IMG/VR virus record: IMGVR_UViG_3300005581_000055
Location: 1-35,602 of that record
DNA length: 35,602 bases
Origin: a virus
Strand: one strand, 5' to 3'
The notes below the pieces were generated by a model. The model was not told where the DNA came from and searched no databases. It was given only the letters and a program-made list of their open reading frames with translations. This document shows positions 7,202-29,286 of this stretch, one piece after another. The position numbers and the translations under genes are program-made. The first letter of the stretch is position 1. Each line of letters opens with the position of its first letter.

Positions 7202-10200
7202 TTATGCCTTAATTAACTTTTGTTGTTTCAAGTTAGTATCAGTTAACTGTGTAATAATATCAATATCCTTAATAGTTGCGCCGCTAACAAATAATTCGTT
7301 AGCACCACTTGTTACTTGGAACAAGTCCCCGAACGTTGTACTAGTTCCTTGCGGTACTAATACTACAGAACTGATAGATCCTGCTAACTTAGTATGTATG
7401 TAGGCCGCCAGTTCCGTAAAGTAAAATGTTTCTCCAAAGGTCCAGTTAACAATAGAAAAGAACTCGTCGATTGCCGTTAGTGTTCTACTTTTAATTTCAC
7501 TATCACTGAGTGATGTTCCAGCCAGTTTAATTACTTTAAATTTTCCTTTTAGCTCTTTATCTGCATAATTTCCAAATAGTATCTTATATTTACTTGGTCG
7601 ATATACAATTGTATCACTACTTGTTTTAACTTCTTCCAATGCCGCAAAATTCTGATACAGCTCTTGCGGGGTTGGAGGTAATGGCATGTCTTCAATTTTG
7701 CCTGTGGCTTTTAACCATCGTCTAAATTTTAAATCGTAGTCACTAGTTAATACAAATAAATCTATAATATTAATAGAACTTGGATCAATTCTCTGATTAG
7801 ACTCTGCAATATGATGCCACTGCATATACAAATCAGTTCTACCTTTGTGTGTAATACTAGTGGTTGTATCTTCATACGAAGAATCAAAAATTTGTCTAAA
7901 TTTAATGCCGTTAACAGTTACATAGTCTGACTTAACAATATTACTGCCTACTAGGCCTTCAAAGATATATGGATCATCGGGTAAGAAATCACTGTTGGCA
8001 TCAGATAAACTAACCACTAATTTCGTATTATCTGTAAAACTATCTTCGGCAATAAAATATTTGTCACTCTTAAACTCTGCTTTTTTGCCAAAGACTTTTG
8101 TGCCGTCAGCACTTAAATTCGATGGCAAGTAATAGAAGCTATCTTGTTCTATTTTAGTTGTTTCGCTGTTAATGGCTTTTTTAAAGTTTTCGTTAAAGAA
8201 TCTAACTTTATTCACACTGCCTGAAATGTAACGAATTGATTTATGATAAACAACGTATTGATCATTCTCATAATTCACTCTAATCCACCAACTGTTGTCT
8301 TTATTTTGTTCACTTACATCACCGGCAAATGTTGTATTATAGAAAAGAGAATTTCCTATATTATTTTGACTTACGATTCTGTAAGTTTGCGTAATATAAT
8401 CATAACGTATTGCAAACGGCAATTTAGTTTCTAACAACTCTTTAATTAAATTGTACTCGGTGGTGCCGAATACTTGTTTAAATCTAGGAATATATCGGAT
8501 TATTTTACTATTAGTTTTAATATTTTTCGAAAGAACTACAACACCAGTGCCATCTTCTTTTCTGCCGGTATTGTTTGAATTCAAATCTTGTACACCTTGC
8601 CCGGTGCCGTATATATTGGTTACGGCCACCCATTGCCTAACTTGTGTGTCAGGGTCTTCAAATTCAAGTAATGCACCTTGTACAATTTGTCTATTTTGTC
8701 CAACCGTTGCTAACCCTATTTTAATAATAGAGGCAAAGTTTTGGCTGACTTCGAAGCCAGTAAAGTATCCTGTGCTCTTGCCAGAGCCCAACGTAACCCT
8801 ATTCCATTTAACATTTGTCGGTAAACCAGTAGTTGGCGATGGCGATTGATTATAGTTTAGTGCCGGGCTCTGTGAATAGAACATGTTAACGACCTCGGCC
8901 TCACGTAATATGCCAGCTAGATTATCGACAATTAAATTTTTAAGGTACAAGTTATTGTTAACAGTATAATAGTTTGTTGTATAATATTCGTCTTTATAGA
9001 TATATGCATCATCTGTAAATATATCCAAACTTTGGTTTGTACCAGTAGGATCTGTTATATTTGTATATCTACTAAATCCACTGTGTATTCTATTAGTTGC
9101 TTTAATTTTTAAAATGTTATTGCTTGTTGTCAACGGATACACACTATAATCATTACCAGTAACCATACGGTCCTGACTATAATATGAGTTCGGTGCATTA
9201 ACTCTTACACTTTCAATATCTTCACTGCCTACGCTATTAGTCACATCATATTCTAAGTCGGCAGTTAACGTTAAAAACTGGCGCTTGCCCACTTTATCAT
9301 AGTATGCAAAGTCCCATGTGATGTTTTTCATATCTTCAGGGCGTATAGTATATGTCTCACCGTTACTACTACGTGTCCATACTCTGATAATTCCCCTAGG
9401 AACTTGGCTAAAGTATCCGTCGCCAAACTTTACACTAATTTTATCATTGTCTCGAGTAATTACGCTACATATTTTTCTGTCGCCGCTGGCAAAGCTATTA
9501 TAAATGATATTGTTACCAACTAAGTTAGGCACATTTTTCCAGTTATTAACTACACTACCATCTTCATTGATTGCTTGTACGTAGACGTCCTGCTCGTTAA
9601 TCATTTCGATATCAATGTCAATGACTCTATTTTCGATATAATCGTTTAATTGATAGTCGTTCTTATTCATCTGTCCTTGTTTAAAGACAACAAAGAATCC
9701 TGTATTAGCACTAGTATTGCCGGCGCCGTCATTTCTATATAGTAAATTCCACTGAGAGAATGGATCCGGTGTTTGTTCTTCGTAGTAACCTAGGTCTGCA
9801 AATGTGGGATTACATATTTCAAAATTTGAAGTTTTACTTGCTACAGATGCACTATAACTAACTGCAACCTGTTGGTCAGGTATAGTATTTAGGCTGTATA
9901 ACTGACTAGTAACGCCGCCCACAGTACCTGCTTTTACAGGTGTTCCAAATGGATGGTTAGTTCCAAATACCGAATTTAATACTGTAATAAATTTTTCAAA
10001 ACTATCAGGATCGTTTACGCCTGCCCATTGTAATGGTACATTAGCTAAATTTGAACCAGTGCTATCTAATACATTTTCAGTTGTTTTAATTGATTTTATT
10101 TTTAATAGGCCCTGTGCAGACACGTTACGCTTTGGGTTGTAGCTTAAAAATCTGGCTAGGCGCAATACGTTTTCTTTACGTTCGGCAGTATCAATGAAGT

Positions 10201-10456
10201 TCTCACGACTGTTTAAATCAATACGAAACCCTAAGTTTTGTCCTAAGAACGCTACTAAGTCAATAAGGGCAACAAACTCACTACTTTGAATCCAGTCATT
10301 AAAATCTTCAGGATAGTTAGTGCGAATGTATTCAATCATTGCCGTACGCAATGTATCAAAGTCATATGCTTTAAAATCAGCATTCTTAAAACTCTGATAT
10401 ACGCTTTGCCAGTTTTCTGCGGCAAATAAATTTTCTTGTCTAATAGTTTGCGCCAT
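7202..10456 (-). CDS. 6: Baseplate wedge protein gp6
   Basis: A 1084-residue protein matching the T4 gp6 / baseplate J-like family. The N-terminal third is the most recognisable: an acidic start, then FNDWIQSSEFVALIDLVAF, a fold that packs against gp25 and forms the wedge dimer, and ENVLRLARFLSYNPKR. A central segment around NSYYSQDRMVTGNDYSVYPL corresponds to the conserved baseplate J core. In the virion gp6 makes the continuous ring that joins wedges around the hub. T4 gp6 is about 660 residues, so roughly 400 residues are extra, mostly in the middle and C-terminal half. It follows gp25 by nine bases and precedes the giant structural gene by one base, which is the T4-type wedge order. Confidence 0.93.
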   Translation of the reverse strand: MAQTIRQENLFAAENWQSVYQSFKNADFKAYDFDTLRTAMIEYIRTNYPEDFNDWIQSSEFVALIDLVAFLGQNLGFRIDLNSRENFIDTAERKENVLRLARFLSYNPKRNVSAQGLLKIKSIKTTENVLDSTGSNLANVPLQWAGVNDPDSFEKFITVLNSVFGTNHPFGTPVKAGTVGGVTSQLYSLNTIPDQQVAVSYSASVASKTSNFEICNPTFADLGYYEEQTPDPFSQWNLLYRNDGAGNTSANTGFFVVFKQGQMNKNDYQLNDYIENRVIDIDIEMINEQDVYVQAINEDGSVVNNWKNVPNLVGNNIIYNSFASGDRKICSVITRDNDKISVKFGDGYFSQVPRGIIRVWTRSSNGETYTIRPEDMKNITWDFAYYDKVGKRQFLTLTADLEYDVTNSVGSEDIESVRVNAPNSYYSQDRMVTGNDYSVYPLTTSNNILKIKATNRIHSGFSRYTNITDPTGTNQSLDIFTDDAYIYKDEYYTTNYYTVNNNLYLKNLIVDNLAGILREAEVVNMFYSQSPALNYNQSPSPTTGLPTNVKWNRVTLGSGKSTGYFTGFEVSQNFASIIKIGLATVGQNRQIVQGALLEFEDPDTQVRQWVAVTNIYGTGQGVQDLNSNNTGRKEDGTGVVVLSKNIKTNSKIIRYIPRFKQVFGTTEYNLIKELLETKLPFAIRYDYITQTYRIVSQNNIGNSLFYNTTFAGDVSEQNKDNSWWIRVNYENDQYVVYHKSIRYISGSVNKVRFFNENFKKAINSETTKIEQDSFYYLPSNLSADGTKVFGKKAEFKSDKYFIAEDSFTDNTKLVVSLSDANSDFLPDDPYIFEGLVGSNIVKSDYVTVNGIKFRQIFDSSYEDTTTSITHKGRTDLYMQWHHIAESNQRIDPSSINIIDLFVLTSDYDLKFRRWLKATGKIEDMPLPPTPQELYQNFAALEEVKTSSDTIVYRPSKYKILFGNYADKELKGKFKVIKLAGTSLSDSEIKSRTLTAIDEFFSIVNWTFGETFYFTELAAYIHTKLAGSISSVVLVPQGTSTTFGDLFQVTSGANELFVSGATIKDIDIITQLTDTNLKQQKLIKA

Positions 10457-10465
10457 TGCTTACCT

Positions 10466-10825
10466 TTATTTTATTTCCTTACTTGTGTCGAACTCAATTT
10501 GTAAATCTGTTACCAAGTTATCTGGCAAATAATTTAACCTTATAACTAATGTAAATCCATTTGGAACCGGGATTATGTTTACCCCTATTAATTCGAACCT
10601 TATATCTTGTCTGATTATAGCCAAACATTCATTTTTTACATAACTTTCCAGTTCAGGAGTTAATGCATCAAATAATACGTCCCATATCCCTGTGCCAATA
10701 TCTGGCGCCATAACACGTTCGCCCTTTCGAGTCATGAACGTGTTTAGCAAATCTTGTTTTGCAATCTCAACATCATATGCCTTATTAGAAGGTAAATGTG
10801 AAGAGAATCCTTTATATGTTGTCAT
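10466..10825 (-). CDS. 25: Baseplate wedge protein gp25 (gp25/GpW family)
   Basis: A 119-residue protein of the gp25-like family found in T4 baseplates, P2 GpW and type VI secretion TssE. Typical features are NKAYDVEIAKQDLLNTFMTRKGERVMAPDIGTGIWDVLFD, i.e. an N-terminal helix, the RKGER turn and the GT.IWDVLFD segment, followed by beta strands ending in LQIEFDTSKE. The protein nucleates sheath polymerisation and binds gp6. I chose the ATG at 10825; an in-frame TTG at 10840 would add five residues, but no good ribosome site supports it. The gene sits nine bases upstream of gp6 in the wedge operon. Confidence 0.93.
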   Translation of the reverse strand: MTTYKGFSSHLPSNKAYDVEIAKQDLLNTFMTRKGERVMAPDIGTGIWDVLFDALTPELESYVKNECLAIIRQDIRFELIGVNIIPVPNGFTLVIRLNYLPDNLVTDLQIEFDTSKEIK

Positions 10826-10857
10826 ACCATTATTTACCAATAAAATAAACTACATAC

Positions 10858-11112
10858 TTAATGTATGGTAGGTTTTGGTCCATCTTGGGATCCTTCTTCT
10901 AAACGTTGTAATAATTCAGTTATTTCCATATTCTTAAATAACTGCTGGTTAAGTGCCGCAACTATACTTTTAAAAACTTCTAAATTTTTTGGCTGAGAAT
11001 CATTTGGGGCCACAATTGGATGTATGAAATCCAATTGGCCATTTTCTTTAATAATGATGGCGCAATCGCTAGGGTTGCACTGATAGCCGGGTTTTGGAGT
11101 TATGATTGACAT
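10858..11112 (-). CDS. Small conserved-type phage protein, first gene of wedge operon
   Basis: An 84-residue hypothetical protein starting MSIITPKPGYQCNPSDCAI, with two N-terminal cysteines (in CNPSDC) and a C-terminal helix containing LLQRLEEG. No known domain is recognised. It is the promoter-proximal gene of the gp25-gp6 operon, about 25 bases downstream of a NATAAATA late box, so it should be expressed late with baseplate proteins; a structural or assembly role is a guess. Its first codons overlap the -35 box of the opposite-strand early promoter at 11106-11111. Confidence 0.75.
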   Translation of the reverse strand: MSIITPKPGYQCNPSDCAIIIKENGQLDFIHPIVAPNDSQPKNLEVFKSIVAALNQQLFKNMEITELLQRLEEGSQDGPKPTIH

Positions 11113-11744: not shown

Positions 11745-12034
11745 AAAAACTTATTTTAGTGTTAGCTGTATTGGCATTAACCGGATGTTCAACCAGACAA
11801 ATGGGGCCAGCATTAGTGGGCGGCGTAATTGGTTATGCTATTGCTAAAGACGCTGAGCCTAAAACTGTAGTAATTAGACAACCGGTTATTGTTCATAGTG
11901 TCCCAGTATCCAATGGTAGGCCAGAATTTTCACATTGTGTAGGATATCCGCTAGGAAGAGATCGAGACGCTTGTAATCGCGGTGCTATGGACAGGGCATC
12001 GGACGATGCTTATCGTTATGGTCGTTACAGATAA
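11741..12034 (+). CDS. Putative outer-membrane or periplasmic lipoprotein
   Basis: A 97-residue protein with a classic signal peptide: two lysines after Met, a hydrophobic run, and the lipobox LTGC with the lipidated cysteine at residue 16. After cleavage the mature part has a glycine-rich hydrophobic segment (MGPALVGGVIGYAIAK, resembling a glycine-zipper) and a Arg/Tyr/Asp-rich tail. Phage lipoproteins of this size act in lysis (Rz1-like spanin) or in superinfection exclusion; there is no Rz partner next to it, and it is short of proline compared with Rz1. The start overlaps the previous stop. Its last ten bases overlap the convergent gene on the other strand. Confidence 0.8.
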   Translation: MKKLILVLAVLALTGCSTRQMGPALVGGVIGYAIAKDAEPKTVVIRQPVIVHSVPVSNGRPEFSHCVGYPLGRDRDACNRGAMDRASDDAYRYGRYR

Positions 12035-12675
12035 CTTGTAAAAATACTAAGCCCTATTTTACTTTGGGCTCCGGCTTCTAAAAAATTAGTAGACACATGA
12101 AGGTGTTTGCGGTCAAAAACAATAATGTCTCCGGGAATCCATTCGCATCTGTTTAACACAGACATCCCTTCAAAGTTACTTCGGTCTAAATGATTGCATT
12201 CAGTAACTAACGTCTCGTCGAATCCTTGTACAAGGCCACAGACCTCAGCATAGTCGTCCACTATTTTATTAAATTCTTCTTTTACGCCCGGTGTTCCTTT
12301 AACAAAGAAACTTGCGGCGCCGTCCCATTTTTGATTTAGTATGTATAATGCATTTTTAGAAGAATCATACGTAGGCGTTGTAAAAACTTTAAGGGGTATT
12401 ACAAATGTTTTATAAGGACGTGGATCAGGTATGCCTGTATCTGTATGGATTCTGTATGGTACATTGGTAGTAAAGAAATTACCGCTGGTAATTTCCCAAG
12501 TGCCTTTGCCTAACTCGTTGTCAATTATAGGTGTTATAATATCTATAACTATTGGAGTTAAATTGGAAAAATGACGTCCTGAAAATTTAGCATACTCGTT
12601 TAGGTCTAGTTGATGTTCATTCATTAACTTAGTTCTGCTCCATAGGTCTAATGCTTTTTTTAATACGTATGCCAT
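12025..12675 (-). CDS. Putative 2-oxoglutarate/Fe(II)-dependent oxygenase
   Basis: A 216-residue protein with the layout of a jelly-roll Fe(II)/2OG dioxygenase. The motif H77-T-D79 (in YRIHTDTG) would supply the first two iron ligands, and the C-terminal segment PGDIIVFDRKHLHVSTNF offers H191 or H193 as the third, followed by K206 and a final beta strand IGLSIFT. The family hydroxylates proteins, nucleic acids or small molecules; the substrate here is unknown. It is the last gene of a four-gene minus operon, and its ATG overlaps the stop of the PP-loop gene by one base (TAATG), implying coupled synthesis. Assignment rests on motif spacing, not on close similarity. Confidence 0.7.
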   Translation of the reverse strand: MAYVLKKALDLWSRTKLMNEHQLDLNEYAKFSGRHFSNLTPIVIDIITPIIDNELGKGTWEITSGNFFTTNVPYRIHTDTGIPDPRPYKTFVIPLKVFTTPTYDSSKNALYILNQKWDGAASFFVKGTPGVKEEFNKIVDDYAEVCGLVQGFDETLVTECNHLDRSNFEGMSVLNRCEWIPGDIIVFDRKHLHVSTNFLEAGAQSKIGLSIFTSYL

Positions 12676-13310
12676 TACTTTGAACCCGGATCTTTTTTAC
12701 CTAATATACGAAACGCCCACTCTCGTTCTGCACACTGAAAACATTGTCCACATCTTCCTATTTGCATTTCGGTACAGCTATGACTAAGCTCTAGCAATTT
12801 TTCTTGTCCAAATTGATAGTACAGATCTAAGGTATGTGTTTTATATAAGTCGACGAATGGCACCTGAGCACGTTTGTACTTGTTATGTGAGGGTCGCTCT
12901 GGGTATAATCCCGGCATCGGAAACTCTTCTGGCGGCGTTTGTTGGCTTCCGTAGAAAATGTAATCTACTATTCCGTTGTCTAGCATTGCCATAGTACCAG
13001 TTTCAACTTGCTTACTGTGATGTACTGTTGGGTCACCTACCGATAAAGGAACTGGTAACTTTAAATTTAACCGTTGATTAACGTATTCAACAATGTCTGG
13101 ACTATACAAGTACGCACCGTCTGTTCTTGGTACTGTAAATGGTATCAATTCTGCAGGATTAGGGCGTTGTTTGTTTAATAACGCTACAATATATAACAAT
13201 ATTGCACTATCTGCGCCGCCACTTACTGTTATGCCTACTTTTTTAGGCCAGTCTGGTATGTATATATTAAATCTTCGTATGTCGTTTTTTGGTCCACAAA
13301 TTATTAACAT
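12675..13310 (-). CDS. QueC-like PP-loop ATPase (N-type ATP pyrophosphatase)
   Basis: A 211-residue protein with the ATP-binding PP-loop SGGADS at residues 30-35 and a C-terminal cysteine set C179, C187, C190, C193 in the form C-x7-C-x2-C-x2-C. That combination resembles QueC, the 7-cyano-7-deazaguanine synthase, whose zinc site has the same arrangement. The rest of the 7-deazaguanine pathway (FolE, QueD, QueE) is absent from the window, so the substrate may differ. Start chosen at ATG 13310, which overlaps the preceding stop (TGATG); an in-frame TTG at 13403 would add 31 residues. It is flanked on both sides by oxygenase genes. Confidence 0.8.
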   Translation of the reverse strand: MLIICGPKNDIRRFNIYIPDWPKKVGITVSGGADSAILLYIVALLNKQRPNPAELIPFTVPRTDGAYLYSPDIVEYVNQRLNLKLPVPLSVGDPTVHHSKQVETGTMAMLDNGIVDYIFYGSQQTPPEEFPMPGLYPERPSHNKYKRAQVPFVDLYKTHTLDLYYQFGQEKLLELSHSCTEMQIGRCGQCFQCAEREWAFRILGKKDPGSK

Positions 13311-14014
13311 CAGTGTCGGTGTTGCAAATGGGCAATCACTTTGCTGACATTTGTAACTGTAAATGGAATATTCATAATTAAGTGGATGCTGTCGTCTGTC
13401 CAACTTATTGTTCTATGAGTCTTTTTTGTATTTACGTAATACACGCGGCCTTGTTCTATATTAATCTTTTTATCATCCATCCACCAATCATATTGATAAG
13501 GCGCGGCGTTTTTAATAAAACAAGCCAGTCTAAATTCTCTACGTGGGAATCCTGGACTGTCCCTGTGGGGAACAAAGTATCCGCCGGTATTACACTTTAC
13601 AAAAAAACTGCGGCCTACTGGAGCAAATTCTTGGAACAATGGATGCAAACTTGCACAGGCATCATATAGTGGTGTTAGTTTAGTAAATGCGCTATCACCC
13701 ACCGGCTTGCCTAATGCTTGTGCGGCTTCCGGCAGGCTAGGCAAACTACGATGGTCCCACCCTTCTATATCCAGTGTGGTAAGACTAAGTCCTAATCGGT
13801 TGTTTGGTCTATCCGTCCTAGGAAGATAGTCAACCCAGTCATTGGTAAACACGGACAATTCTTGTTCGAGTTGTGCCGTGTTTACCAAAAAGTCCAGCGG
13901 TTCAAAGTCGCCGATCCCTAATAATGTAGTCTCCGCTACCAGTTTATCAAAATTACTAATAGCTGGATCAACTGTACTTCGACTGTGACTTATGCCTTGC
14001 CCATTTACCGTCAT
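13310..14014 (-). CDS. Aspartyl/asparaginyl beta-hydroxylase-like 2OG oxygenase
   Basis: A 234-residue protein. The core VPHRDSPGFPRREFRLACFIKN gives the HxD iron motif (H150, D152) followed by arginines, and the segment GRVYYVNTKKTHRTISWTDDSIHLIMNI gives the distal iron histidine H200, in the order and spacing seen in the Asp/Asn beta-hydroxylase branch of Fe(II)/2OG enzymes. Phage copies are common in marine T4-like viruses, but their substrates are not known to me. The gene starts inside the stop of the HNH gene (ATGA) and ends overlapping the QueC-like gene (TGATG). Confidence 0.8.
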   Translation of the reverse strand: MTVNGQGISHSRSTVDPAISNFDKLVAETTLLGIGDFEPLDFLVNTAQLEQELSVFTNDWVDYLPRTDRPNNRLGLSLTTLDIEGWDHRSLPSLPEAAQALGKPVGDSAFTKLTPLYDACASLHPLFQEFAPVGRSFFVKCNTGGYFVPHRDSPGFPRREFRLACFIKNAAPYQYDWWMDDKKINIEQGRVYYVNTKKTHRTISWTDDSIHLIMNIPFTVTNVSKVIAHLQHRH

Positions 14015-14550
14015 GCGGCCTGCACTAACTCATCGGGCCATTGGATGTATTCTTTCCATGCTTCGTCCCTGATGTGAATTATTTGTTTACGAGCAAGTTT
14101 TGCCATTTCCCAATATGTGGGTGTACGTGGCTTTATCATTGGTTCCAGCGGGTCGGTACCTTTAATAAAGTTGCAAGTACGACATGCAGTAACAATGTTA
14201 TCCCATGTTGTTTCGCCACCTTGGCTACGTGGAACTACATGGTCAAATGTCAAGTCGTCCACATGAAATGCTTCTCCACAGTATTGACACTTGTGGCCGT
14301 CACGTAAATAAACCATTCGCCTGTTGAATGCTACACCAAAGCTAGGGTTTATCCATTTAGTAGCCACAATGATGCTGGGTACTTTCATAGTTACATATTG
14401 ACTGTGAACTTCCCAATCTGTGTATTCTTTAATTATTGTTGCCTTGTCGGCAAAGACTGCCTTAACAGCAGTTTGCCAGTCGACTGTGCTTAAAGGCAAT
14501 AGACATAATGGGTTGTAGTCTGCGTTTAGAACTAGTGTGTCGTTGCTCAT
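14011..14550 (-). CDS. HNH endonuclease
   Basis: A 179-residue protein from ATG 14550 (an in-frame TTG at 14571 is less likely). The N-terminus, MSNDTLVLNADYNPL, is characteristic of a widespread bacterial and phage HNH family. Zinc cysteines C88/C91 (CQYC) and C123/C126 (CRTC) flank the catalytic DH pair (D103, H104 in LTFDHVVPRSQGG) and N127, a complete HNH site. It may nick DNA as a free-standing homing-type or genome-processing enzyme. It is the first gene of the minus operon under the promoter at 14590-14618. A CTTAAATA sequence at 14558-14565 could be a variant late box. Confidence 0.9.
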   Translation of the reverse strand: MSNDTLVLNADYNPLCLLPLSTVDWQTAVKAVFADKATIIKEYTDWEVHSQYVTMKVPSIIVATKWINPSFGVAFNRRMVYLRDGHKCQYCGEAFHVDDLTFDHVVPRSQGGETTWDNIVTACRTCNFIKGTDPLEPMIKPRTPTYWEMAKLARKQIIHIRDEAWKEYIQWPDELVQAA

Positions 14551-14589
14551 GATTATATATTTAAGTTGCAATTCAGTTATTGAATAGCC

Positions 14590-14618
14590 ATTATAGCATA
14601 GTAGTCATTAGAAGTCTA
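14590..14618 (-). promoter_or_regulatory. Sigma70-type promoter for the HNH/oxygenase/PP-loop operon
   Basis: On the minus strand: TAGACT (four of six matches to TTGACA) at 14618-14613, a 17-base spacer ending TGC (extended -10), and a perfect TATAAT at 14595-14590. Its transcript would start about 30 bases before the ATG at 14550. Confidence 0.6.
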
Positions 14619-14649: not shown

Positions 14650-14841
14650 ATGTTAGAAAAAGTAGCCGATACCGAAAAATCTAGAAGGCTGGCCGTTTGC
14701 AGTAAATGCGAACATTTATTTGCGCCCACAATGTCCTGTACCAAATGCGGATGTTTTTTAGCAGTTAAAGCATCGTTCAAAATTTTTAAATGCCCCATGG
14801 GGAAATGGGCCGTAAATTTGATTGACAATAAATCCAATTAA
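14650..14841 (+). CDS. Small zinc-ribbon protein
   Basis: A 63-residue protein whose core CSKCEHLFAPTMSCTKCGCF has two CxxC knuckles and a further cysteine, followed by KCPMGKWA; this is a compact zinc ribbon of a type seen in many phage small proteins. It could bind nucleic acid or a protein partner. ATG 14650 has no visible ribosome site; an in-frame TTG at 14620 seems less likely because it adds a non-conserved-looking leader. The last codons (LIDNKSN) contain the -35 box and most of the spacer of the promoter at 14822-14850. Confidence 0.75.
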   Translation: MLEKVADTEKSRRLAVCSKCEHLFAPTMSCTKCGCFLAVKASFKIFKCPMGKWAVNLIDNKSN

Positions 14842-14850
14842 TTGTATAAT
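14822..14850 (+). promoter_or_regulatory. Strong sigma70 promoter, repeat copy 1
   Basis: Perfect TTGACA (14822-14827), 17-base spacer, perfect TATAAT (14845-14850). The spacer ends with the palindrome CAATTAATTG (14835-14844), abutting the -10 box. Bases 14822-14863 are identical to 15169-15210. The transcript has a leader of about 20 bases with an A-rich AAAAAGG ribosome site before ATG 14878. Confidence 0.9.
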
Positions 14851-14877
14851 AGTGGCATAGTAACAAAAAAGGCTCGT

Positions 14878-15168: not shown

Positions 15169-15197
15169 TTGACAATAAATCCAATTAATTGTATAAT
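15169..15197 (+). promoter_or_regulatory. Strong sigma70 promoter, repeat copy 2
   Basis: TTGACA (15169-15174), 17-base spacer containing CAATTAATTG (15182-15191), TATAAT (15192-15197). It is identical over 42 bases to copy 1 and lies in the short gap between two small genes. An AAAAGG ribosome site follows before ATG 15227. Confidence 0.9.
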
Positions 15198-15226
15198 AGT
15201 GGCATAGTAAGTAAAAAGGAAACGCA

Positions 15227-15712: not shown

Positions 15713-15992
15713 TAGAAACAAGTTTGGGTTCCTGGGTTGGAACAATAGCCCTGGGCACGACAAGATATGGGGCTTTATAGAAACAAGTCAGGGCGTGTTT
15801 GGATTCTGGGGTCGTCGTAAAGGCAAATTGTCTTTCAAAGAATACCCTAGTATCTGGGACGCTCATGACATTGCGAACCAAAAAGAGCGCAAGGGCTATC
15901 GTGGCACTGACGTAAGTGTTCTACCCACTGACTTTGAAGGACAATTAATGTTTGCTTGTTTGGGTATGGTTAAGTTTGGTATTGACAAATAA
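15702..15992 (+). CDS. Hypothetical early protein with WGR-like segment
   Basis: ATG 15702 lies inside the end of the membrane protein gene. The 96-residue product contains DKIWGFIETSQGVFGFWGRRKGKLSF (about residues 20-46), which loosely recalls WGR domains (a Trp-Gly-Arg motif that binds nucleic acid ends), but the similarity is too short to assign. Its last codons (FGIDK) hold the -35 box of the promoter at 15982-16010. Confidence 0.75.
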   Translation: MEINRNKFGFLGWNNSPGHDKIWGFIETSQGVFGFWGRRKGKLSFKEYPSIWDAHDIANQKERKGYRGTDVSVLPTDFEGQLMFACLGMVKFGIDK

Positions 15993-16010
15993 TCCAATTA
16001 ATTGTATAAT
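15982..16010 (+). promoter_or_regulatory. Strong sigma70 promoter, repeat copy 3
   Basis: TTGACA (15982-15987), 17-base spacer with the same palindrome CAATTAATTG (15995-16004), TATAAT (16005-16010). It differs from copies 1 and 2 by a few bases before the palindrome and after the -10 box. The -35 box overlaps the end of the upstream coding region. It drives 16041 onward, including DNA ligase. Confidence 0.9.
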
Positions 16011-16040
16011 ACTTGTATAGTAACTAAAAAGGACTTGAAA

Positions 16041-18244: not shown

Positions 18245-18478
18245 ATGCTTACTGAACGAGAAATAGGTTCTATACTGGCCGCGCAGTTAGTGAGCTTATC
18301 CAAAGATCGAACGTACAGTTACATCAGTAACACACCGTCTTATTCTCATTTGGAAGAGCCGGGCAAAAAGATCATGGCTGAACTTGTTGACATGTTGTTT
18401 GTCAAGGCAGTTGAAGCTGAAAAGAAACGTAGGCAAGATGAAGCTGAACAACTTGTTATGGAAAATCTTAAGAACTAA
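18245..18478 (+). CDS. Hypothetical helical protein (77 aa)
   Basis: ATG 18245 is one base after the previous stop. The product starts MLTEREIGSILAAQLVSLSKDRTY and ends in a long charged helix (VKAVEAEKKRRQDEAEQLVMENLKN) that could form a coiled coil. Function unknown. It is the last plus-strand gene of this block and overlaps the convergent minus-strand gene end by four bases. Confidence 0.75.
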   Translation: MLTEREIGSILAAQLVSLSKDRTYSYISNTPSYSHLEEPGKKIMAELVDMLFVKAVEAEKKRRQDEAEQLVMENLKN

Positions 18479-18957
18479 GTTAGAGAAACTAACTCTAATG
18501 CGGAGTCACTGGTAAGTCTGCTAACAACATCAGCGATTGGAATTTTGAACTTGATGCTGGCATATACCATACCTTTATTTCTAACATCCCATAATAGCGG
18601 AGACGTTTGTAAGTCGACGAGATATACATTATCTTTAGTTAACGACACACGGGCTCCGTCTTTGTTACAATAATATTGTTCGCCAGAGGTAAGTAGATTC
18701 ATAATCATACAAGTGAACCATTGGCTTTTTCCGTAATGTTCTTTTAATGTGGGACCGTACATGCTGTAACTGGGCTCTATTGCAATATCAGCTACACTAG
18801 AAGGTATGCATTTCAGAAACTCTTGTTTGTGTTCTCCAATTGGAGTTACAGATTTTTTATGTTGGGCTATATGTATTCTGTCCCAATTTATCCATTTTAA
18901 ATTTTGTTCTTCCCATCTATTGGGAAACTTAATTCCCTTTAATTCATAAATGGTCAT
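18475..18957 (-). CDS. Hypothetical protein at the end of the baseplate hub operon (160 aa)
   Basis: Start chosen at ATG 18957, which overlaps the gp5 stop as ATGA; a longer frame from 18993 would overlap gp5 coding. The product starts MTIYELKGIKFPNRW. The C-terminal half (SLTKDNVYLVDLQTSPLLWDVRNKGMVYASIKF) has the strand pattern of a jelly-roll fold like the oxygenases in this window, but I see no HxD iron motif, so catalysis is not claimed. Its placement suggests co-expression with the hub late in infection. Confidence 0.7.
   Translation of the reverse strand: MTIYELKGIKFPNRWEEQNLKWINWDRIHIAQHKKSVTPIGEHKQEFLKCIPSSVADIAIEPSYSMYGPTLKEHYGKSQWFTCMIMNLLTSGEQYYCNKDGARVSLTKDNVYLVDLQTSPLLWDVRNKGMVYASIKFKIPIADVVSRLTSDSALELVSLT
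18478..18494. terminator. Possible bidirectional hairpin between convergent genes
   Basis: AGTTAG-AGAAA-CTAACT forms a six-base-pair hairpin exactly at the junction of the two converging gene ends. There is no strong T-run on either strand, so termination is only a possibility. An overlapping alternative stem (TTAGAG/CTCTAA) also exists. Confidence 0.3.
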
Positions 18958-20927
18958 GGTACAAATCCAGCTGGTTTGGCAACGTTTTGCCATTGTCTCT
19001 TTTGCACTTCGGTAGGTGCACCAAACACAGGCTTCCAGCGGCCTGCGCCTAGTTGTTCGCCTTTAGTTTGTGCTTTATTATTATTAATAGCTCGTTTAAT
19101 TGCCTTAAATCCTTCCAGCTCTAACTGCTGTCTTGTATTACCTTTAGGATAATTACCAGTTAAAAATATTTGTGCTTCTTTAAGTCGTCGTGCATTCTCA
19201 TGCGGGCAAGCACTAATAGCATTGCCCATACTCTTATAGTCTTTTTCTTTTGCTAATGTTATAATGGTCTTGCCGTTAAGTTTTAATCCAGACATGCCAC
19301 CGGCTCCCATATTATATGCAACACTAATTAATGCATCATATTGAGGTTGAGTAAACTTAACCCCTTTAAATCTTCTACTCATTTCTTTTTCGAAATACTT
19401 AACGTCTTGCAAGAACTTATTATATGCTTGGTCGTATGTTTTGCCGTTTTCAAATTCACCAGCAGTATCATGCGGTATTCCGGGTTGTTGTAAATGACCA
19501 AAGCCAATACTGTTGTATCTGTAGTCCCAGTAATCTATTGGGCGGAATGCTTCTTGTCCTAATATAAAATCTACGCCAGGTTTACTTATATGCATAGCAG
19601 ATACATCAGTCATTGTAGTAGTGTCTACACCTTCACTGGGCTTAACGTCAGATACATCCAATGGAGTAGTTGATGCATTGGGATCAGTGGGAAACTGATG
19701 ATCTAGTGCTGGGTCGGAACTCTGTTGCGCTGACCTAGTAATACTAACTAGCCCTGGATTGGGTAAATTAACGTGGCCTTGCCATGGCTCGTGTTCGGGT
19801 GCTCTACTTACTATAGATCTCCTTAAACTAGTATTTGTAACCAATGCAGTTTCTTCTGGCTGTGCTGGATCATCTGCTCCTGGTCCATTTAAATGAATTG
19901 TGCTTCCGACTACTATAACTTCTCCGGTGGCTCCTATTGTTAACTTGCCGTTAACTCCTAATGCCATACCTGCGCCAGCCAGCATATCAATACGTTGACC
20001 TATTGTTTGTCGCATATTGCCGCCGGCTTTAACATTAAAGTCGTCAACACATTCCATATTAATATTTTTGCCGGCCCTTAGGTTTAAATCTCCCAAGGTA
20101 TGCATGTTAATGCCACCTTCAGCATACGCATCTATATGGCCATCGGCACTTAATTCAAACCATGCTGTTCCATCTCTATTAATCATGTACACCATACCAA
20201 AGGTATCGCTAATGAATATTTGTGCGCCGTGTGATGTACGTAATCTAATATAAGAATTTTTTACATCATCGTCCATAACAAACTGTTGTTGTCCAGGTGT
20301 CAATATGCCTTGCACTTTACTAACGCTGTCGCGTTGTGCGCCGCTGGTACTATTACCCCTGAGAAAGTCTTTAGTTAGTCCTTGGTCTTCCAATGCATCT
20401 GCAAGTGTGGAATGTCGGGGTCGCAAGCTGGCATCGTTATCTAAATCTCGTTTATTTTTTTCTGCGCTGGGATATGTCTCTGCATTTGTTGTTTTACCAT
20501 ATGTTTTACCGAATGGAATTCCTGGAACAGTATATGTATTTGCTTGTTGATATAAACAAGCAAACCATACACCTTTAGTAATATCTCCGTTGGGAAACGC
20601 AATTAGAACTTCATTATTAACGTCGGGCGGCACAAACCAAAACCCATAGGCTTTTTGTGTATCTTTAAAACTTTTAGGATTAGATCCAGTTGCATGTGGA
20701 TTAGTAGCGCCAGCAAACGGACTAGCATATCCGACTGTGATCCAGCTGGATGAATCTTCAGACGAACTTTTAAATTCTGGGATCCAAACTTTAAGTCTGC
20801 CCATACCTCTGTCATCTTTATTATCTTTAATAATGCCAAGATATATGCCCAAGGGCATATTAATTCTACTGGCGTTGCCGTCCTTAGATTGTGGTCTTAC
20901 TCTATTTGCCGCGTTACTTAATGCCAT
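18954..20927 (-). CDS. 5: Baseplate central spike protein gp5 with C-terminal lysozyme
   Basis: A 657-residue protein. Residues 27-130 form the gp5-type OB fold (GIYLGIIKDNKDDRGMGRLKVWIPE ... PPDVNNEVLIAFPNGD). Residues about 225-350 are short repeats with alternating hydrophobic residues (NMHTLGDLNLRAGKNINM...), the triple-stranded beta-helix needle also seen in VgrG. Residues about 440-595 are a GH24 lysozyme: E459 and D468 are spaced as the catalytic Glu and Asp, then SIGFGH (S473 where Thr is usual) and PQYDALISVAYNMGAG. It pierces the outer membrane and cuts peptidoglycan during injection. In T4 gp5 the lysozyme lies between OB fold and needle; here it follows the needle. Three bases separate it from the hub gene upstream. 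Confidence 0.93.
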   Translation of the reverse strand: MALSNAANRVRPQSKDGNASRINMPLGIYLGIIKDNKDDRGMGRLKVWIPEFKSSSEDSSSWITVGYASPFAGATNPHATGSNPKSFKDTQKAYGFWFVPPDVNNEVLIAFPNGDITKGVWFACLYQQANTYTVPGIPFGKTYGKTTNAETYPSAEKNKRDLDNDASLRPRHSTLADALEDQGLTKDFLRGNSTSGAQRDSVSKVQGILTPGQQQFVMDDDVKNSYIRLRTSHGAQIFISDTFGMVYMINRDGTAWFELSADGHIDAYAEGGINMHTLGDLNLRAGKNINMECVDDFNVKAGGNMRQTIGQRIDMLAGAGMALGVNGKLTIGATGEVIVVGSTIHLNGPGADDPAQPEETALVTNTSLRRSIVSRAPEHEPWQGHVNLPNPGLVSITRSAQQSSDPALDHQFPTDPNASTTPLDVSDVKPSEGVDTTTMTDVSAMHISKPGVDFILGQEAFRPIDYWDYRYNSIGFGHLQQPGIPHDTAGEFENGKTYDQAYNKFLQDVKYFEKEMSRRFKGVKFTQPQYDALISVAYNMGAGGMSGLKLNGKTIITLAKEKDYKSMGNAISACPHENARRLKEAQIFLTGNYPKGNTRQQLELEGFKAIKRAINNNKAQTKGEQLGAGRWKPVFGAPTEVQKRQWQNVAKPAGFVP

Positions 20928-20930
20928 GTG

Positions 20931-23312
20931 TTAACTCTTTGTGTTTGGAACTGTCGAAGATGTTTTAGTTGGATACGACTCTCGACTTTTCTTTACAGAC
21001 TTCTGTTCTGTAGCTTTATCTGCGGCTTTCTTTGAAGCCGTTTGTGTTTCGATGCCTAAATAACTGTTAATAATATTTGCATCTCTTACTGCTGTTAACT
21101 TTTGTGTAAAATTTCCTTTAAAAGTATGCTCTACATTTGTAACTAGATATAAACCAGATATCATCTGATTCGTATCAAACGTCATCAATCCATCATCGTT
21201 ATATTGGCTTGGTGTTTGAACGGCCAAGTACAAATAATTGCCGCCTTTATTATAATCTGCAAATATAGAATTAGAATACTTGGCCTGATTGTTTCCAGCT
21301 AGTTTTTCTAACAGTATGCTATTTGGCACACCAAACCAGAATGGATCTCCAATTATTTCTATTGGGTCTAGTTTACATAAATCTGCACTGGCTTTGAGTT
21401 GATTAAAGATATATCCGAAACTACCTCTGTTGTTACTAAACGGACTTTCCATACCTTGAGTTGATTCTTGGTCAGTGTCGTCTTCTAAGAATCTATTTAA
21501 CAACCAACCCGCATTAACCTGTGTATTGTCTACTACCCCTTCGCTGTCTTGATAAGTTAATCCTTGAACTCGTATTTGCTTAGGATCCTGTTGCGGTGCA
21601 TTTTGGCCGAACTTTTTAATTGGACCTAGTAATGTTGTTACGGCGGCTTGCTTATCTTGCATCCATGGATTAGTTTTCTGCTTTGCTTCTAATTCTGCAA
21701 TTCGTTGTTGTCTTTTAGACTCTCTTAGATAAATGCCCTCTCTTGCGTCTTTGAGTGCTTTGGCATTATCTTTCCATTCTTTTCTAGCTTCATCAATACG
21801 TGCTTTTTCCCCATTGGGATTGCCTTTAATTTTGTCTCCATGCTGACTAGTATCTGCAAATGCTGTTCCGTTAGTAGGCACAGGTTGAAAATAACTGTTT
21901 TCTAACTTAATGTTAAAATTCATTACTTCAGTGTTACGGCCAGTATACAAATAGTCATAGCGTTTGTTAAGCATGTTTAATGCTTTCATTTTCATGAAAC
22001 GCTTTTTAACTGTTTCTTTATTAGTATTGTCGTCACCACCTTGCTGTGCATCTTGATCAGCTGGCGTTACAATCTGCGGAGTTATCCACGGTATTATTTT
22101 GTATGTTATTTTCTTTGCATAGTCTTTAACATAGCTATCAAACTCAATTGCTTCAGTCCATGTTTGTACTCTGAAAAATTGATATGGATCAGCGGCTTCG
22201 TCGGGAGTTATTTTACTAGGTAATCCTTTTTCGCCGCCGGCACTACCTTTTCGTTCTACACGTTGTAATTGTTGCATTTCGTCTGTGCCAGCTAAAATAA
22301 CATTAATCAATCCTAGTATACCAGACCCTTCCCTGAATACTTGTTTACCTTTGCCGCCGTCAGATTGCAGTGATTTACTGATAGAAATATTACTAGGGTT
22401 AAAATTAGCAAATCTATATTTTGCTATTTCTGGATCAACTTGGAATACATATTCATGTGCTACTAATTTACTAGCGTATACTTTATTTTTTTCTTTTTGA
22501 TTCAATGCAGTGGCTAAGCCAGTGAAGTATTCTCCAACTGTGGACGCAGAAACATTAACAATGTCTTTTAAGTTTTCTACAATTAGTTCCTGTGCTTGAA
22601 CTTCTTGGTGTACAAATTCAATATCATACTTGCCGCCGTTGGCATCTATATTCATAGTTACTTTTTTAAACACAATTGGCCATATAAAATAAGTGTCAGG
22701 AATAAAAATGTTTTCGCCAGTTTCGGTTGTTCCTTTAAATGTAACTTCTAGATAATAACTTGCTTGGGTGTGATTAGATATACGTAACGCATTAGCTGTT
22801 CTAACTATATTATCTAAAAATCTAACACCCAATGGTTCAACAATAACCATTCTACCAGTTGTATTAGTTACATTCTGAGACTTACTATCCCAATTACAAA
22901 CAGATTTAAGAGTGCATTCATCAATGACCATGTCGGCAGTCGCGGCGGTTTCTGCAATAACTACGCCCTGTTCGACTTTCCAGTCTGACACAAGTTGTGG
23001 ATGTATCATTGTTAAGCGCAAATAGTACGCAGTATTAGTATAAGTGTTAAGAATATTATCTTTAAACTTGTTTGCCGCTTCAGCGGCATTTGCAATATCT
23101 AATTGAACTGGTACAACTGATTTGTCTTTGTCATCTACTTGTTTTATGTAGTCGGGATCTTTAAGAGCGTTTACTCTAGATTTTCTATTTTCAACTACAT
23201 TGTCGTAGCCCGCTTGAGTTTCGGCATCTCTGCCTTTATTAGCTTTCGCGGCCTCGGCGGCATTCGTCGGAGGGTTGCTCTTACTAGGATATTTTTGTTT
23301 TACTGTAGCCAT
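20931..23312 (-). CDS. Baseplate hub protein, gp27-like
   Basis: A 793-residue protein directly upstream of gp5, where the hub partner gp27 (gpD-like fold) is expected. The C-terminal part LMTFDTNQMISGLYLVTNVEHTFKGNFTQKLTAVRDANI is a typical hub signature (a strand pair, VEH-F-G-FTQ-L and RD). The N-terminus is low complexity and lysine/alanine-rich; a charged coiled-coil region lies near two thirds of the length (EKARIDEARKEWKDNAKALKD...). T4 gp27 is about 391 residues, so this version is doubled in size. The trimer would connect tube, wedge and spike. The gp27 identity rests on position and the C-terminal motif. Confidence 0.75.
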   Translation of the reverse strand: MATVKQKYPSKSNPPTNAAEAAKANKGRDAETQAGYDNVVENRKSRVNALKDPDYIKQVDDKDKSVVPVQLDIANAAEAANKFKDNILNTYTNTAYYLRLTMIHPQLVSDWKVEQGVVIAETAATADMVIDECTLKSVCNWDSKSQNVTNTTGRMVIVEPLGVRFLDNIVRTANALRISNHTQASYYLEVTFKGTTETGENIFIPDTYFIWPIVFKKVTMNIDANGGKYDIEFVHQEVQAQELIVENLKDIVNVSASTVGEYFTGLATALNQKEKNKVYASKLVAHEYVFQVDPEIAKYRFANFNPSNISISKSLQSDGGKGKQVFREGSGILGLINVILAGTDEMQQLQRVERKGSAGGEKGLPSKITPDEAADPYQFFRVQTWTEAIEFDSYVKDYAKKITYKIIPWITPQIVTPADQDAQQGGDDNTNKETVKKRFMKMKALNMLNKRYDYLYTGRNTEVMNFNIKLENSYFQPVPTNGTAFADTSQHGDKIKGNPNGEKARIDEARKEWKDNAKALKDAREGIYLRESKRQQRIAELEAKQKTNPWMQDKQAAVTTLLGPIKKFGQNAPQQDPKQIRVQGLTYQDSEGVVDNTQVNAGWLLNRFLEDDTDQESTQGMESPFSNNRGSFGYIFNQLKASADLCKLDPIEIIGDPFWFGVPNSILLEKLAGNNQAKYSNSIFADYNKGGNYLYLAVQTPSQYNDDGLMTFDTNQMISGLYLVTNVEHTFKGNFTQKLTAVRDANIINSYLGIETQTASKKAADKATEQKSVKKSRESYPTKTSSTVPNTKS

Positions 23313-23313
23313 T

Positions 23314-23604
23314 TTATAGGTATGTGTTTGCTCGGTCTTTACTTAGTAATTTAATCCTTGTGCCAGATTTAAAGTCGAACACCGGATCTCTCAATACGTT
23401 TGGATTTAATGCACGGAATATCCACCATAATCTACTAGACCCATACGCTTCATAAGCTAATAGGTCTGGTCGGCAATGATATTTAGGTTCAATTGTAATT
23501 TCTATTTCAGTTCCGTCGTAGGCAATAGATGGCAAACTTGCTGTGTCTAAATAAAACCTGTTGATTCGGGTAGTAGAATACGGGCTTGCATTTTCATATC
23601 TCAT
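23314..23604 (-). CDS. 53: Baseplate wedge protein gp53
   Basis: A 96-residue protein containing the gp53 core: YDGTEIEITIEPKYHCRPDLLAYEAYGSSRLWWIFRALNPNVLRDPVFDFKSGTRIKL. The RPDLLAY...YG...LWW...NP...DP..DF..GT pattern is characteristic of the gp53 / LysM-like baseplate wedge family that links adjacent wedges. T4 gp53 is twice as long, so this is a minimal version. It begins two bases after the previous stop and ends one base before the hub gene. Confidence 0.85.
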   Translation of the reverse strand: MRYENASPYSTTRINRFYLDTASLPSIAYDGTEIEITIEPKYHCRPDLLAYEAYGSSRLWWIFRALNPNVLRDPVFDFKSGTRIKLLSKDRANTYL

Positions 23605-23606
23605 AA

Positions 23607-24227
23607 TTAAATGTATCCTTGTTTGGCCAATGTGCCGTTCGCAAAGTCAGACAAATTGAATTTGTTTTTGATAGCATTAGTGCTATATTGCACTGACAGA
23701 TCCATGGTCATTTCTAACACCATCGGTACCATTGACGTTCCAATCGGCGTTTTAATTGGCACATAGTCTACATCACTAGGGTACCTGTAGTTTACGCTGA
23801 TCACCTGTACCGGAACATTTTCAAAGTTCGTTGGACCATATGCGCTGAAATTTAACACTGGTGGCGGACTGCCGCGCTTTGCATCAGTTACACCAAAATG
23901 CATTTTGGTGATTGTTCTTAAGTAATGCATTACTGCTATCATGTATAATCCATCGTCAACAGTACTTGCAGTAAATTTGATTGAGTTCAAACTTATCCTA
24001 GGGTTTTCTGTTCTTTTGTAAATATTAGGACTATAGTTAGTATGGGTCAGCGCCAATGGATCGTATATTGCCCTGACATCATACTGAATGTCTGGCATAT
24101 ATGGAAAGAGTATGCCGCCGAATTGTTTAAGTGGATCTAGTATTGGGCTGTTAAACATTGGGTCACGTACCCCTTGTTTACTGGCCAGTGACACCCTGTT
24201 GGAATAATTAATCGATTCGCCCGCCAT
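23607..24227 (-). CDS. Baseplate tube-like protein (gp48/gp54-type, tentative)
   Basis: A 206-residue protein starting MAGESINYSNRVSLASKQG. The features ENPRISLNSIKFTAS, an antiparallel middle (YLRTITKMHFG ... GSPPPVLNFSAYG) and VPVQVISVNYRYPSDVDYV resemble tail-tube and baseplate-tube folds (T4 gp54, gp48, gp19). It ends FNLSDFANGTLAKQGYI. Its neighbours gp53 and the hub support a role in initiating the tail tube on the hub. It is shorter than T4 gp48 or gp54. An AGGAG ribosome site seven bases before ATG lies inside the end of the upstream gene, with a 20-base overlap. Confidence 0.55.
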   Translation of the reverse strand: MAGESINYSNRVSLASKQGVRDPMFNSPILDPLKQFGGILFPYMPDIQYDVRAIYDPLALTHTNYSPNIYKRTENPRISLNSIKFTASTVDDGLYMIAVMHYLRTITKMHFGVTDAKRGSPPPVLNFSAYGPTNFENVPVQVISVNYRYPSDVDYVPIKTPIGTSMVPMVLEMTMDLSVQYSTNAIKNKFNLSDFANGTLAKQGYI

Positions 24228-24837
24228 TGCCGTCTCCTAGTTTGCTATCTACCATTTTAAATAATTGCTGATCAAATTTACCAAATAACTCTGTAAATAA
24301 TTTAACTCGAGTCTCAGAGTCTGAATCTTTATACATTGCTCGTATTTCACTAGCACTTCGTATTTCGCGGCCTAATATACTAAAATCAAATGTCGGTACG
24401 GTATACACATATCCATGTTTGTCAAATGTTTTAAAATCATGGTCTTTCTGAAAAGCCTGTAAATAGCTAGGTGTGCCATCTTTCTTTAAACCAAATTTGA
24501 AACGAGGGTCATCTGACATATCTTTTTCACTGACTGCAAACACCAATACATTTTTAGTAGGATCATAATTTGCTGTAATTTCCTGTGCTTGATATGGGTT
24601 TTTTGTTAAAATTACTTGGCTAGAAGGAACGCCCGTTAATTGCATTAATGCTTTCTTTTCTGCAAAAGAAAACGGACTTTTAAGAGGTTCTACTTTGTCA
24701 CTAGTAGCAATATACACTGAGCCAGCTCCAAATTGTTTGACTAAGAAGTCAAATACCTGCTTGTGTCCTAAATGAAAAGGCTGAAATCTACCGGGGTATA
24801 CTATTACTAGTCTCTTGTCTATTTGGCTGAATCTCAT
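24208..24837 (-). CDS. NadM-like cytidylyltransferase-family nucleotidyltransferase
   Basis: A 209-residue protein with the nucleotidyltransferase signature GRFQPFHLGH at residues 16-25 (the HxGH loop binding ATP phosphates) and the C-terminal RSASEIR at 160-166, equivalent to the ISxTxIR motif of NMN adenylyltransferases. It would transfer AMP from ATP to a nucleotide such as NMN, giving NAD. The C-terminal 35 residues are charged. It is the first gene of the baseplate hub operon, 24 bases after a late box and with an AAGGA ribosome site, an unexpected place for a metabolic enzyme. Substrate is not certain from sequence. Confidence 0.85.
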   Translation of the reverse strand: MRFSQIDKRLVIVYPGRFQPFHLGHKQVFDFLVKQFGAGSVYIATSDKVEPLKSPFSFAEKKALMQLTGVPSSQVILTKNPYQAQEITANYDPTKNVLVFAVSEKDMSDDPRFKFGLKKDGTPSYLQAFQKDHDFKTFDKHGYVYTVPTFDFSILGREIRSASEIRAMYKDSDSETRVKLFTELFGKFDQQLFKMVDSKLGDGNGGRID

Positions 24838-28830: not shown

Positions 28831-29286
28831 ATGGCTGGCACAGTTATCGCAACAGAAAAAGATAAAACAGGCGCTGATGTTACTATCAGCTGGGCTAAGA
28901 AAATTGGCGGAAGTATTGTTACTCCGTTTTTTCTACGAAATTATGCGGCGTTAATAGAAAACGGACATTCTGCCTCCTTTATATTTGGAACTAATAACAG
29001 TAAAGCAGTTTATGCTGTCATTGACAACACGGTGGTAGGTGCAATTGTATATGATACACAAGAAGACACTTATAAAACTGCATGGATTGTATTAAGTTGT
29101 ATCGACGACAACTACCGTCGTCGTGGAATATATATGATGCTTCATAAACATTTCGAAAATGTTGTTAAAAACGAAGGTAGTAAGCGTCTGGCTAGTCATG
29201 TGCATGTTGATAACGTTATAAGACAAGCCAGTTGTGAAGCAGTTGGGATGAAGCCTGATTTTTTAAGAATGGAAAAAACACTATGA
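28831..29286 (+). CDS. GNAT-family N-acetyltransferase
   Basis: A 151-residue protein with the acetyl-CoA motif YRRRGIYMMLHKHFENV (R96-R-R-G99-I-Y, a Q/R-x-x-G-x-G/A variant with Y in the last position) after the beta-4 strand TAWIVLSCID, and a C-terminal HVHVDNVIRQASCEAVGMK typical of GNAT motif B. Acceptor unknown. It starts one base after gp46 and overlaps the oxygenase gene by four bases, so it opens the second PP-loop/oxygenase island. Confidence 0.82.
   Translation: MAGTVIATEKDKTGADVTISWAKKIGGSIVTPFFLRNYAALIENGHSASFIFGTNNSKAVYAVIDNTVVGAIVYDTQEDTYKTAWIVLSCIDDNYRRRGIYMMLHKHFENVVKNEGSKRLASHVHVDNVIRQASCEAVGMKPDFLRMEKTL

Follow-up and report, generated by a model that had tools for sequence, protein, structure and literature searches.

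What reaction might a QueC-like PP-loop ATPase and two Fe(II)/2-oxoglutarate (2OG) oxygenases carry out when they are encoded together in a phage genome? The question is raised by IMG/VR virus record IMGVR_UViG_3300005581_000055, a 35.6-kb fragment (35,602 nucleotides, analyzed at full length and hereafter termed the window). Its minus strand carries, 5' to 3' from 14550 to 12025, genes for an HNH endonuclease, a first oxygenase (OX1), the QueC-like protein, and a second oxygenase (OX2), each overlapping the next by 1-4 bases. An earlier note on this DNA had described these four overlapping genes, and all four open reading frames (ORFs) were confirmed:

14011 to 14550, minus strand: HNH endonuclease gene, first gene of the island, 179 amino acids (PF01844, 8.8e-17; phrog_16726, 3.3e-40).
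13310 to 14014, minus strand: OX1, putative Fe(II)/2OG oxygenase of the Asp/Asn-hydroxylase type, 234 amino acids (iron triad; hhalign match to a protein of Pelagibacter phage Mosig).
12675 to 13310, minus strand: QueC-like PP-loop ATPase with zinc cysteines, 211 amino acids (SGGxDS, K157, C(x)7CxxCxxC-x-ER-x-W; AlphaFold2 model).
12025 to 12675, minus strand: OX2, second putative Fe(II)/2OG oxygenase, 216 amino acids (H77xD79...H193, K206; AlphaFold2 model).

We find that OX1, the QueC-like protein, and OX2 constitute the functional unit and that their association is real. The trio recurs in large aquatic T4-like phages, where the three proteins probably work jointly on one not-yet-described chemical modification. 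The earlier proposal of a new modification chemistry acting on a DNA base, tRNA, or protein is a fair reading.

QueC relatives turned up on 15 contigs in the first viral scans; one contig was identical to the window, and in all 14 others both oxygenase genes lay beside the QueC-like gene. Group A (L012-L015; QueC-like proteins 78-80% identical) retains the gene order of the window, with the HNH gene in front. In group B (L016-L025; 44-49% identical), OX1 and the QueC-like gene share one strand, OX2 is convergent, and a radical S-adenosylmethionine (SAM) gene often lies between the QueC-like gene and OX2. Wider scans contributed 75 further OX1 loci. Within a neighborhood of about 4 kb, 34 of these encoded both OX2 and a QueC-like protein, 22 OX2 only, 5 a QueC-like protein only, and 14 neither, some of the last on short contigs; OX2 was thus nearby in 56 of the 75.

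The trio sits in a hypervariable island of baseplate and tail-fiber genes, which invites the reading that three unrelated auxiliary genes merely share the island. Islands with many such genes have been described in pelagimyophages (PMC7029224), one is present in phage Mosig, and OX1-OX2 pairs do occur without a QueC-like gene. We nevertheless regard this explanation as improbable. Across 30 non-redundant phage loci with OX1 and a QueC-like gene, adjacency was held through 15 different arrangements, the QueC-like gene lying no more than 100 bp from an oxygenase gene in 23 loci, and the frames overlap in group A. That the genes stay linked despite such extensive rearrangement is strong evidence that they serve a common function. 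The HNH gene did not share in this linkage: although adjacent to the trio in group A, its homologues in group B (G008-G010, 40-43% identical) lie several kilobases from the QueC-like gene. We therefore rejected the nuclease as a module member and propose that it is either a passenger or an independent nuclease. The four-gene set of the earlier note accordingly contracts to three.

Neither oxygenase gave a credible Pfam match, and PDB profile matches were weak for both. OX1 is assigned as a putative Fe(II)/2OG oxygenase from its HxD...H triad (H150xD152...H200; H150 and D152 present in 100% and H200 in 98% of 90 sequences, among which R162 was invariant or 98% conserved) and from its relationship to an Asp_Arg_Hydrox-annotated protein of phage Mosig (tblastn 2e-18; hhalign probability 98.4). 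For OX2, the residues H77, D79, and H193 and the basic 2OG-binding residue K206 were each present in 100% of 93 sequences. The AlphaFold2 model of OX2 (predicted local distance difference test [pLDDT] 85) adopts the double-stranded beta-helix of 2OG oxygenases, with Z scores (VIA) of 14.2 to SnoN, 13.2 to the Pseudomonas P4H, and 12.9 to PHD2. With triads that are invariant or nearly so, both proteins should be active oxygenases.

The QueC-like protein matched PF06508 at 27.1 bits, a match confined to its cysteine-rich C-terminal part. Using a profile of 11 relatives, the best PDB sequence match was Cap9 (1.6e-4), with QueC behind. The AlphaFold2 model (pLDDT 85) aligned to QueC (3bl5) with a Z score of 11.8 over 162 residues at 3.6 Å (VIA); scores to QueC 2pg3 (11.1), Cap9 9nto (11.0), LarE (10.9), and QatC 9y01 (10.1) were nearly tied, so by fold the protein belongs to the QueC/LarE section of the PP-loop superfamily and cannot be placed more narrowly. 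The predicted structure shows a QueC/Cap9 fold with an ATP loop and zinc-site cysteines, in keeping with the earlier description of a QueC-like enzyme with its zinc cysteines. Among 46 non-redundant phage sequences, the S, G, G, and S of the SGGxDS loop were 100% conserved and the D 97%, the four cysteines were invariant, and the surface lysine (K157) and ER-x-W were also kept.

The regions that distinguish QueC from its relatives are where the phage proteins diverge. A 2026 survey defined canonical QueC by SGGxDS, YxQxHxxE, VPxRN, YPDC, and C(x)8CxxCxxC, and a Tyr, an Arg, and a Tyr within YxQxHxxE, VPxRN, and YPDC are proven to be essential in Escherichia coli QueC (PMC13329287). In the 46 phage sequences, YxQxHxxE and VPxRN are gone, replaced by (P/A/D)(R/K)xDGA and GDPTxHH, and YPDC has become (Y/A)P-x-R, in which Ala can take the place of the Tyr, the Asp position is unconstrained, and the Arg two residues past the Pro is 93% conserved. 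According to structures of Cap9 and QatC, the Tyr and Asp of YPDC are the residues that read the deazaguanine, and QatC has replaced both (PMC13279940). Nonconservation of this pair, which reads 7-carboxy-7-deazaguanine (CDG), together with conservation of PxR in its place, points to a remodeled substrate site. The protein shares with canonical QueC its fold, SGGxDS, surface lysine, C-terminal zinc cysteines, and size (~210 amino acids) but is encoded outside any que operon.

Resemblance to the Cap9 protein of type IV cyclic oligonucleotide-based antiphage signaling systems (CBASS), and to QatC of qatABCD, suggests another role, namely a conjugase that would attach a nucleobase acid to the N-terminus of a protein, with the oxygenases adjusting the conjugate. 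Cap9 is the best PDB sequence match, has the same fold, lacks a preQ0 operon of its own, and shares the cysteine spacing C(x)7CxxCxxC, as opposed to the C(x)8CxxCxxC of QueC. However, the Cap9 motifs Y/FxQ(x)5E, RN, and YxDC are absent. So is an adjacent cGAS/DncV-like nucleotidyltransferase (CD-NTase) with an N-terminal MGG; the neighbors are instead the HNH protein, OX1, and OX2, whose N-termini (MSN, MTV, and MAY, respectively) are neither MGG nor MGT. QatC has the QueC fold and, like the phage proteins, has given up the CDG-reading Tyr/Asp pair. It differs in length (~400 amino acids, with N- and C-terminal extensions that the 211-residue phage protein lacks), in cysteine spacing (C(x)19 rather than C(x)7), and in its QatA, QatB, and QatD partners, none of which accompanies the phage gene. 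A conjugase of this type is therefore quite unlikely. By the features tested, the phage protein is neither canonical QueC nor Cap9 nor QatC, and its motifs mark it as a new branch of the QueC family with a predicted rebuilt substrate site.

As mapped in 2026, the QueC family comprises canonical QueC, QatC, Cap9, LarE, and a few others, and includes several branches without known chemistry. To these the phage proteins would add a further branch, one tied to two oxygenases and devoid of the CDG-reading residues. Searches by tblastn with the QueC-like protein, OX2, and one divergent QueC-like protein found no relative among INPHARED phages, Mosig included. In one contig scan of bacterial genomes, the sole match to the QueC-like protein was a weak C-terminal cysteine motif in an unrelated multidomain protein. 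PADLOC returned only generic QueC and HNH matches, plus pVip for the radical SAM neighbor.

According to the earlier note, the QueC-like gene stands without the rest of the preQ0 pathway. This proved to be an artifact of the window. The window phage's two closest large relatives, G002 (IMGVR_UViG_3300032288_001980, 184 kb) and G003 (IMGVR_UViG_3300047560_000921, 231 kb), encode FolE, QueE, and a QueD-like protein elsewhere in their genomes. Both also encode a 510-amino-acid protein of the tRNA-guanine transglycosylase (TGT) superfamily (132615-134144 in G003), which adjoins the sliding clamp and DNA polymerase and displays the ordered motifs DSGGFQ, NVLQGG, GWAMGGN, and FDCASP. None of the libraries searched named this protein. 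Absence of a PF01702 match was rejected as proof that a transglycosylase is missing: in a control, DpdA of phage 9g, whose function is proven (PMC6884629), gave no such match either. The motif reading therefore stands, and we infer a DpdA2-like protein. We likewise rejected the view that the QueC-like gene is a genome orphan in these close relatives. Their gene content suggests that phages of the G002/G003 type probably make 7-deazaguanine DNA, a testable prediction for uncultured aquatic T4-like phages with FolE, QueE, and a DpdA2-like transglycosylase.

Could the QueC-like protein, then, be a diverged QueC step in this pathway (FolE, QueD-like, QueE, QueC-like, DpdA2-like), with the oxygenases decorating the inserted base? 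In G002 and G003 it is the only QueC-family protein above the PF06508 cutoff, and every pathway gene except a canonical QueC was found in these two contigs. The QueD-like protein is present in all nine contigs of groups A and B longer than 54 kb, is encoded beside a YhhQ/Vut_1 transporter in G002 and G008, and belongs to a subfamily that, in phages Iggy and R5C, accompanies QueC, FolE, and DpdA. In phages 9g, Iggy, and R5C, the pathway comprises FolE, QueD, QueE, QueC, and DpdA. By comparison, the QueC-like gene of the window's relatives is unlinked, with QueD-like, QueE, and FolE genes tens of kilobases away in G002 and G003, and its product lacks the canonical signature, including YxQxHxxE, VPxRN, and the Asp of YPDC. 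Most other contigs with a QueC-like gene lack QueE.

Co-occurrence was evaluated in 25 other contigs carrying OX1 or OX2; these are fragments picked by pattern scans, and the numbers serve as a guide. QueD-like genes were detected in 15, QueE in 11, DpdA2-like in 13, and intact QueC-like genes in 11, with a broken copy in G024 counted as absent. QueE was negatively associated with the QueC-like gene (1 of 11 contigs with it versus 10 of 14 others; Fisher p 0.004). The corresponding counts were 3 of 11 and 10 of 14 for DpdA2-like genes (p 0.047) and 8 of 11 and 7 of 14 for QueD-like genes (not significant). Tight co-occurrence with QueE or DpdA2 was thus not found in this set, and the QueC-like protein is unlikely to be the regular partner of QueE. 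Two contigs with a QueC-like gene (159 and 188 kb) had no detectable QueD, QueE, or DpdA2, which indicates that phage-made CDG is not required; CDG may come from the host. Conversely, Acidovorax phage ACP17 encodes QueD, FolE, QueE, and a TGT-like protein without QueC beside them, so the pathway can run without the QueC step. On balance, we view a diverged QueC step as rather unlikely. Loss of the CDG-reading residues and failure to track QueE and DpdA2 mean that 7-deazaguanine should not be taken for granted as the substrate.

Two features of the pathway genes themselves deserve mention. In the QueD-like phage subfamily (phrog_2389; L044/L040, G002 8654-9157, G003 200251-200754), two histidines that normally bind metal are replaced by Tyr (CAY, HGY), and its members share 88-91% identity across groups that otherwise mostly have 30-60% identity in their common proteins. 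A glycosyltransferase-like protein, encoded next to the FolE, QueE, and transglycosylase genes in G003 (128549-129640) and ACP17 (L100 9192-10220), perhaps decorates the inserted base.

QueC-fold enzymes adenylate a carboxylate, which is then attacked by ammonia or an N-terminal amine. For their part, 2OG oxygenases add hydroxyl groups at C-H bonds and can take a methyl group to a carboxylate. Combining these activities, we tentatively favor an oxidize-then-ligate tailoring module in a phage hypervariable island, in which the QueC-like protein would activate a carboxylate other than CDG. OX1 and OX2 would most likely make or prepare this carboxylate, either oxidizing a methyl or hydroxymethyl group in successive steps or hydroxylating an acidic side chain. 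The QueC-like protein would then bind ATP and adenylate the carboxylate, as in the QueC/Cap9 half-reaction, and attack by an amine would yield an amide or nitrile. The target could be a phage DNA base, a tail or baseplate (virion) protein, or a host surface molecule; the module's position among baseplate and tail-fiber genes with other tailoring enzymes favors a phage-borne macromolecule. A more specific form of this proposal is a new oxidize-then-amidate pathway: the oxygenases would oxidize a carbon of a phage macromolecule (methyl, hydroxymethyl, or side-chain) to a carboxylate or hydroxy acid, and the QueC-fold ligase, with its remodeled pocket, would form an amide or nitrile, producing a novel DNA or protein modification. 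This we consider doubtful.

A PP-loop ligase acting on phage DNA has precedent in the carboxymethylcytosine system of phage S-B43, where the asparagine synthetase-like CmoY acts with 5-carboxymethylcytosine (PMC12783734). The QueC-like protein could stand in the place of CmoY and ligate an amide onto a carboxylated DNA base, and further PP-loop proteins are indeed encoded in the window and its relatives. CmoX/CmoY and the trio share the idea of an ATP-dependent PP-loop ligase working on a carboxylate handle. CmoY is, however, an asparagine synthetase homologue, and the handle for the trio would come from the oxygenases; moreover, tblastn against the annotated phage collection matched neither of the window's two other PP-loop proteins. 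A CmoY-like role thus has a low probability.

Several points weigh against the oxidize-then-ligate module. OX1 and OX2 occur without a QueC-like gene within 4 kb in 22 of the 75 OX1 loci, which makes the QueC-like protein an optional partner. Independent occurrence of the genes in relatives, one of the two findings that the earlier note had said would refute its reading, is therefore seen in part, alongside the 34 loci with the full trio. The proposed order, oxidation before ligation, comes from chemical reasoning, not data. PP-loop enzymes also perform thiolation, and the zinc-site cysteines are uninformative on the nucleophile. Finally, two close relatives with most of the genome in hand carry the 7-deazaguanine pathway, which fits a diverged QueC step. 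As a defined set of three genes, the trio nonetheless gives a way to look for a new carboxylate-activating reaction, whether on DNA, on protein, or on a small molecule.

The genomic setting matches that of the pelagimyophage islands and of the host-recognition island of Mosig (EXVC030M). Trio loci are neighbored by genes for radical SAM proteins, nitroreductases, desaturases, aldo-keto reductases, acetyltransferases, and further PP-loop proteins. In pelagimyophage islands such as that of Mosig, OX1 relatives lie beside tail fibers, together with nitroreductase, desaturase, radical SAM, and acetyltransferase genes, but tblastn found no relative of the QueC-like protein or OX2 in Mosig. The radical SAM protein encoded between the QueC-like gene and OX2 in group B (L016 6582-7592, minus strand, and A7) matches in its core the STM4011 family, viperin, MoaA, and QueE models (1e-8 to 1e-13). 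Most relatives have 3 to 12 radical SAM matches per contig, and one phage has seven consecutive twitch-type radical SAM genes (L059/L060, G003 139063-148222). Genes resembling ClpX, ClpS, and small heat-shock proteins occur a few kilobases upstream of the trio in L016, L019, L022, and other group B loci.

The window contains a second tailoring island on the plus strand (28831-33403), with an acetyltransferase, a PhyH-type 2OG oxygenase, and two more PP-loop proteins (30596-31714 and 31702-32775). The oxygenase is related to chlorinating enzymes (4.8e-13) yet keeps HxD. Of 67 loci, 7 have an apparent homologue of the first of these PP-loop proteins next to OX1.

Within the first island, the HNH gene begins at the ATG at 14550 and stops at 14011, a TTG at 14571 being a possible alternative start. 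The HNH/OX1 junction is ATGA (4-base overlap), the OX1/QueC-like junction TGATG, and the QueC-like/OX2 junction TAATG (1-base overlap each). A 242-residue form of the QueC-like protein in the ORF list was rejected as over-extended because in every relative the start is an ATG immediately next to the OX1 stop codon or overlapping it (210-216 amino acids). Small genes flanking the island are on the plus strand, as the earlier description of an island oriented against its neighbors implies. This reversal is only local, since the baseplate genes on both sides (7202-11112 and 18475-24837) share the minus strand with the island. The claim that the island has its own sigma70-type promoter is fair, the candidate being:

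14590 to 14618, minus strand: candidate promoter of the island, extended -10 sigma70-type (TAGACT-17-TATAAT, TG before the -10).

This site matches the consensus at 10 of 12 positions, lies 40 nucleotides upstream of the HNH gene, and has a TG-N-TATAMT-like -10 core kept in four relatives. Promoter-like sites across the region showed no clear enrichment (17 versus 11.1 +/- 3.5). Near-perfect promoter sites numbered 7 in the window, with 0.7 expected. A 51-nucleotide element occurs in three plus-strand copies (14822-14872, 15169-15219, and 15982-16032), each of which precedes a small plus-strand gene and opens with a perfect TTGACA-17-TATAAT promoter.

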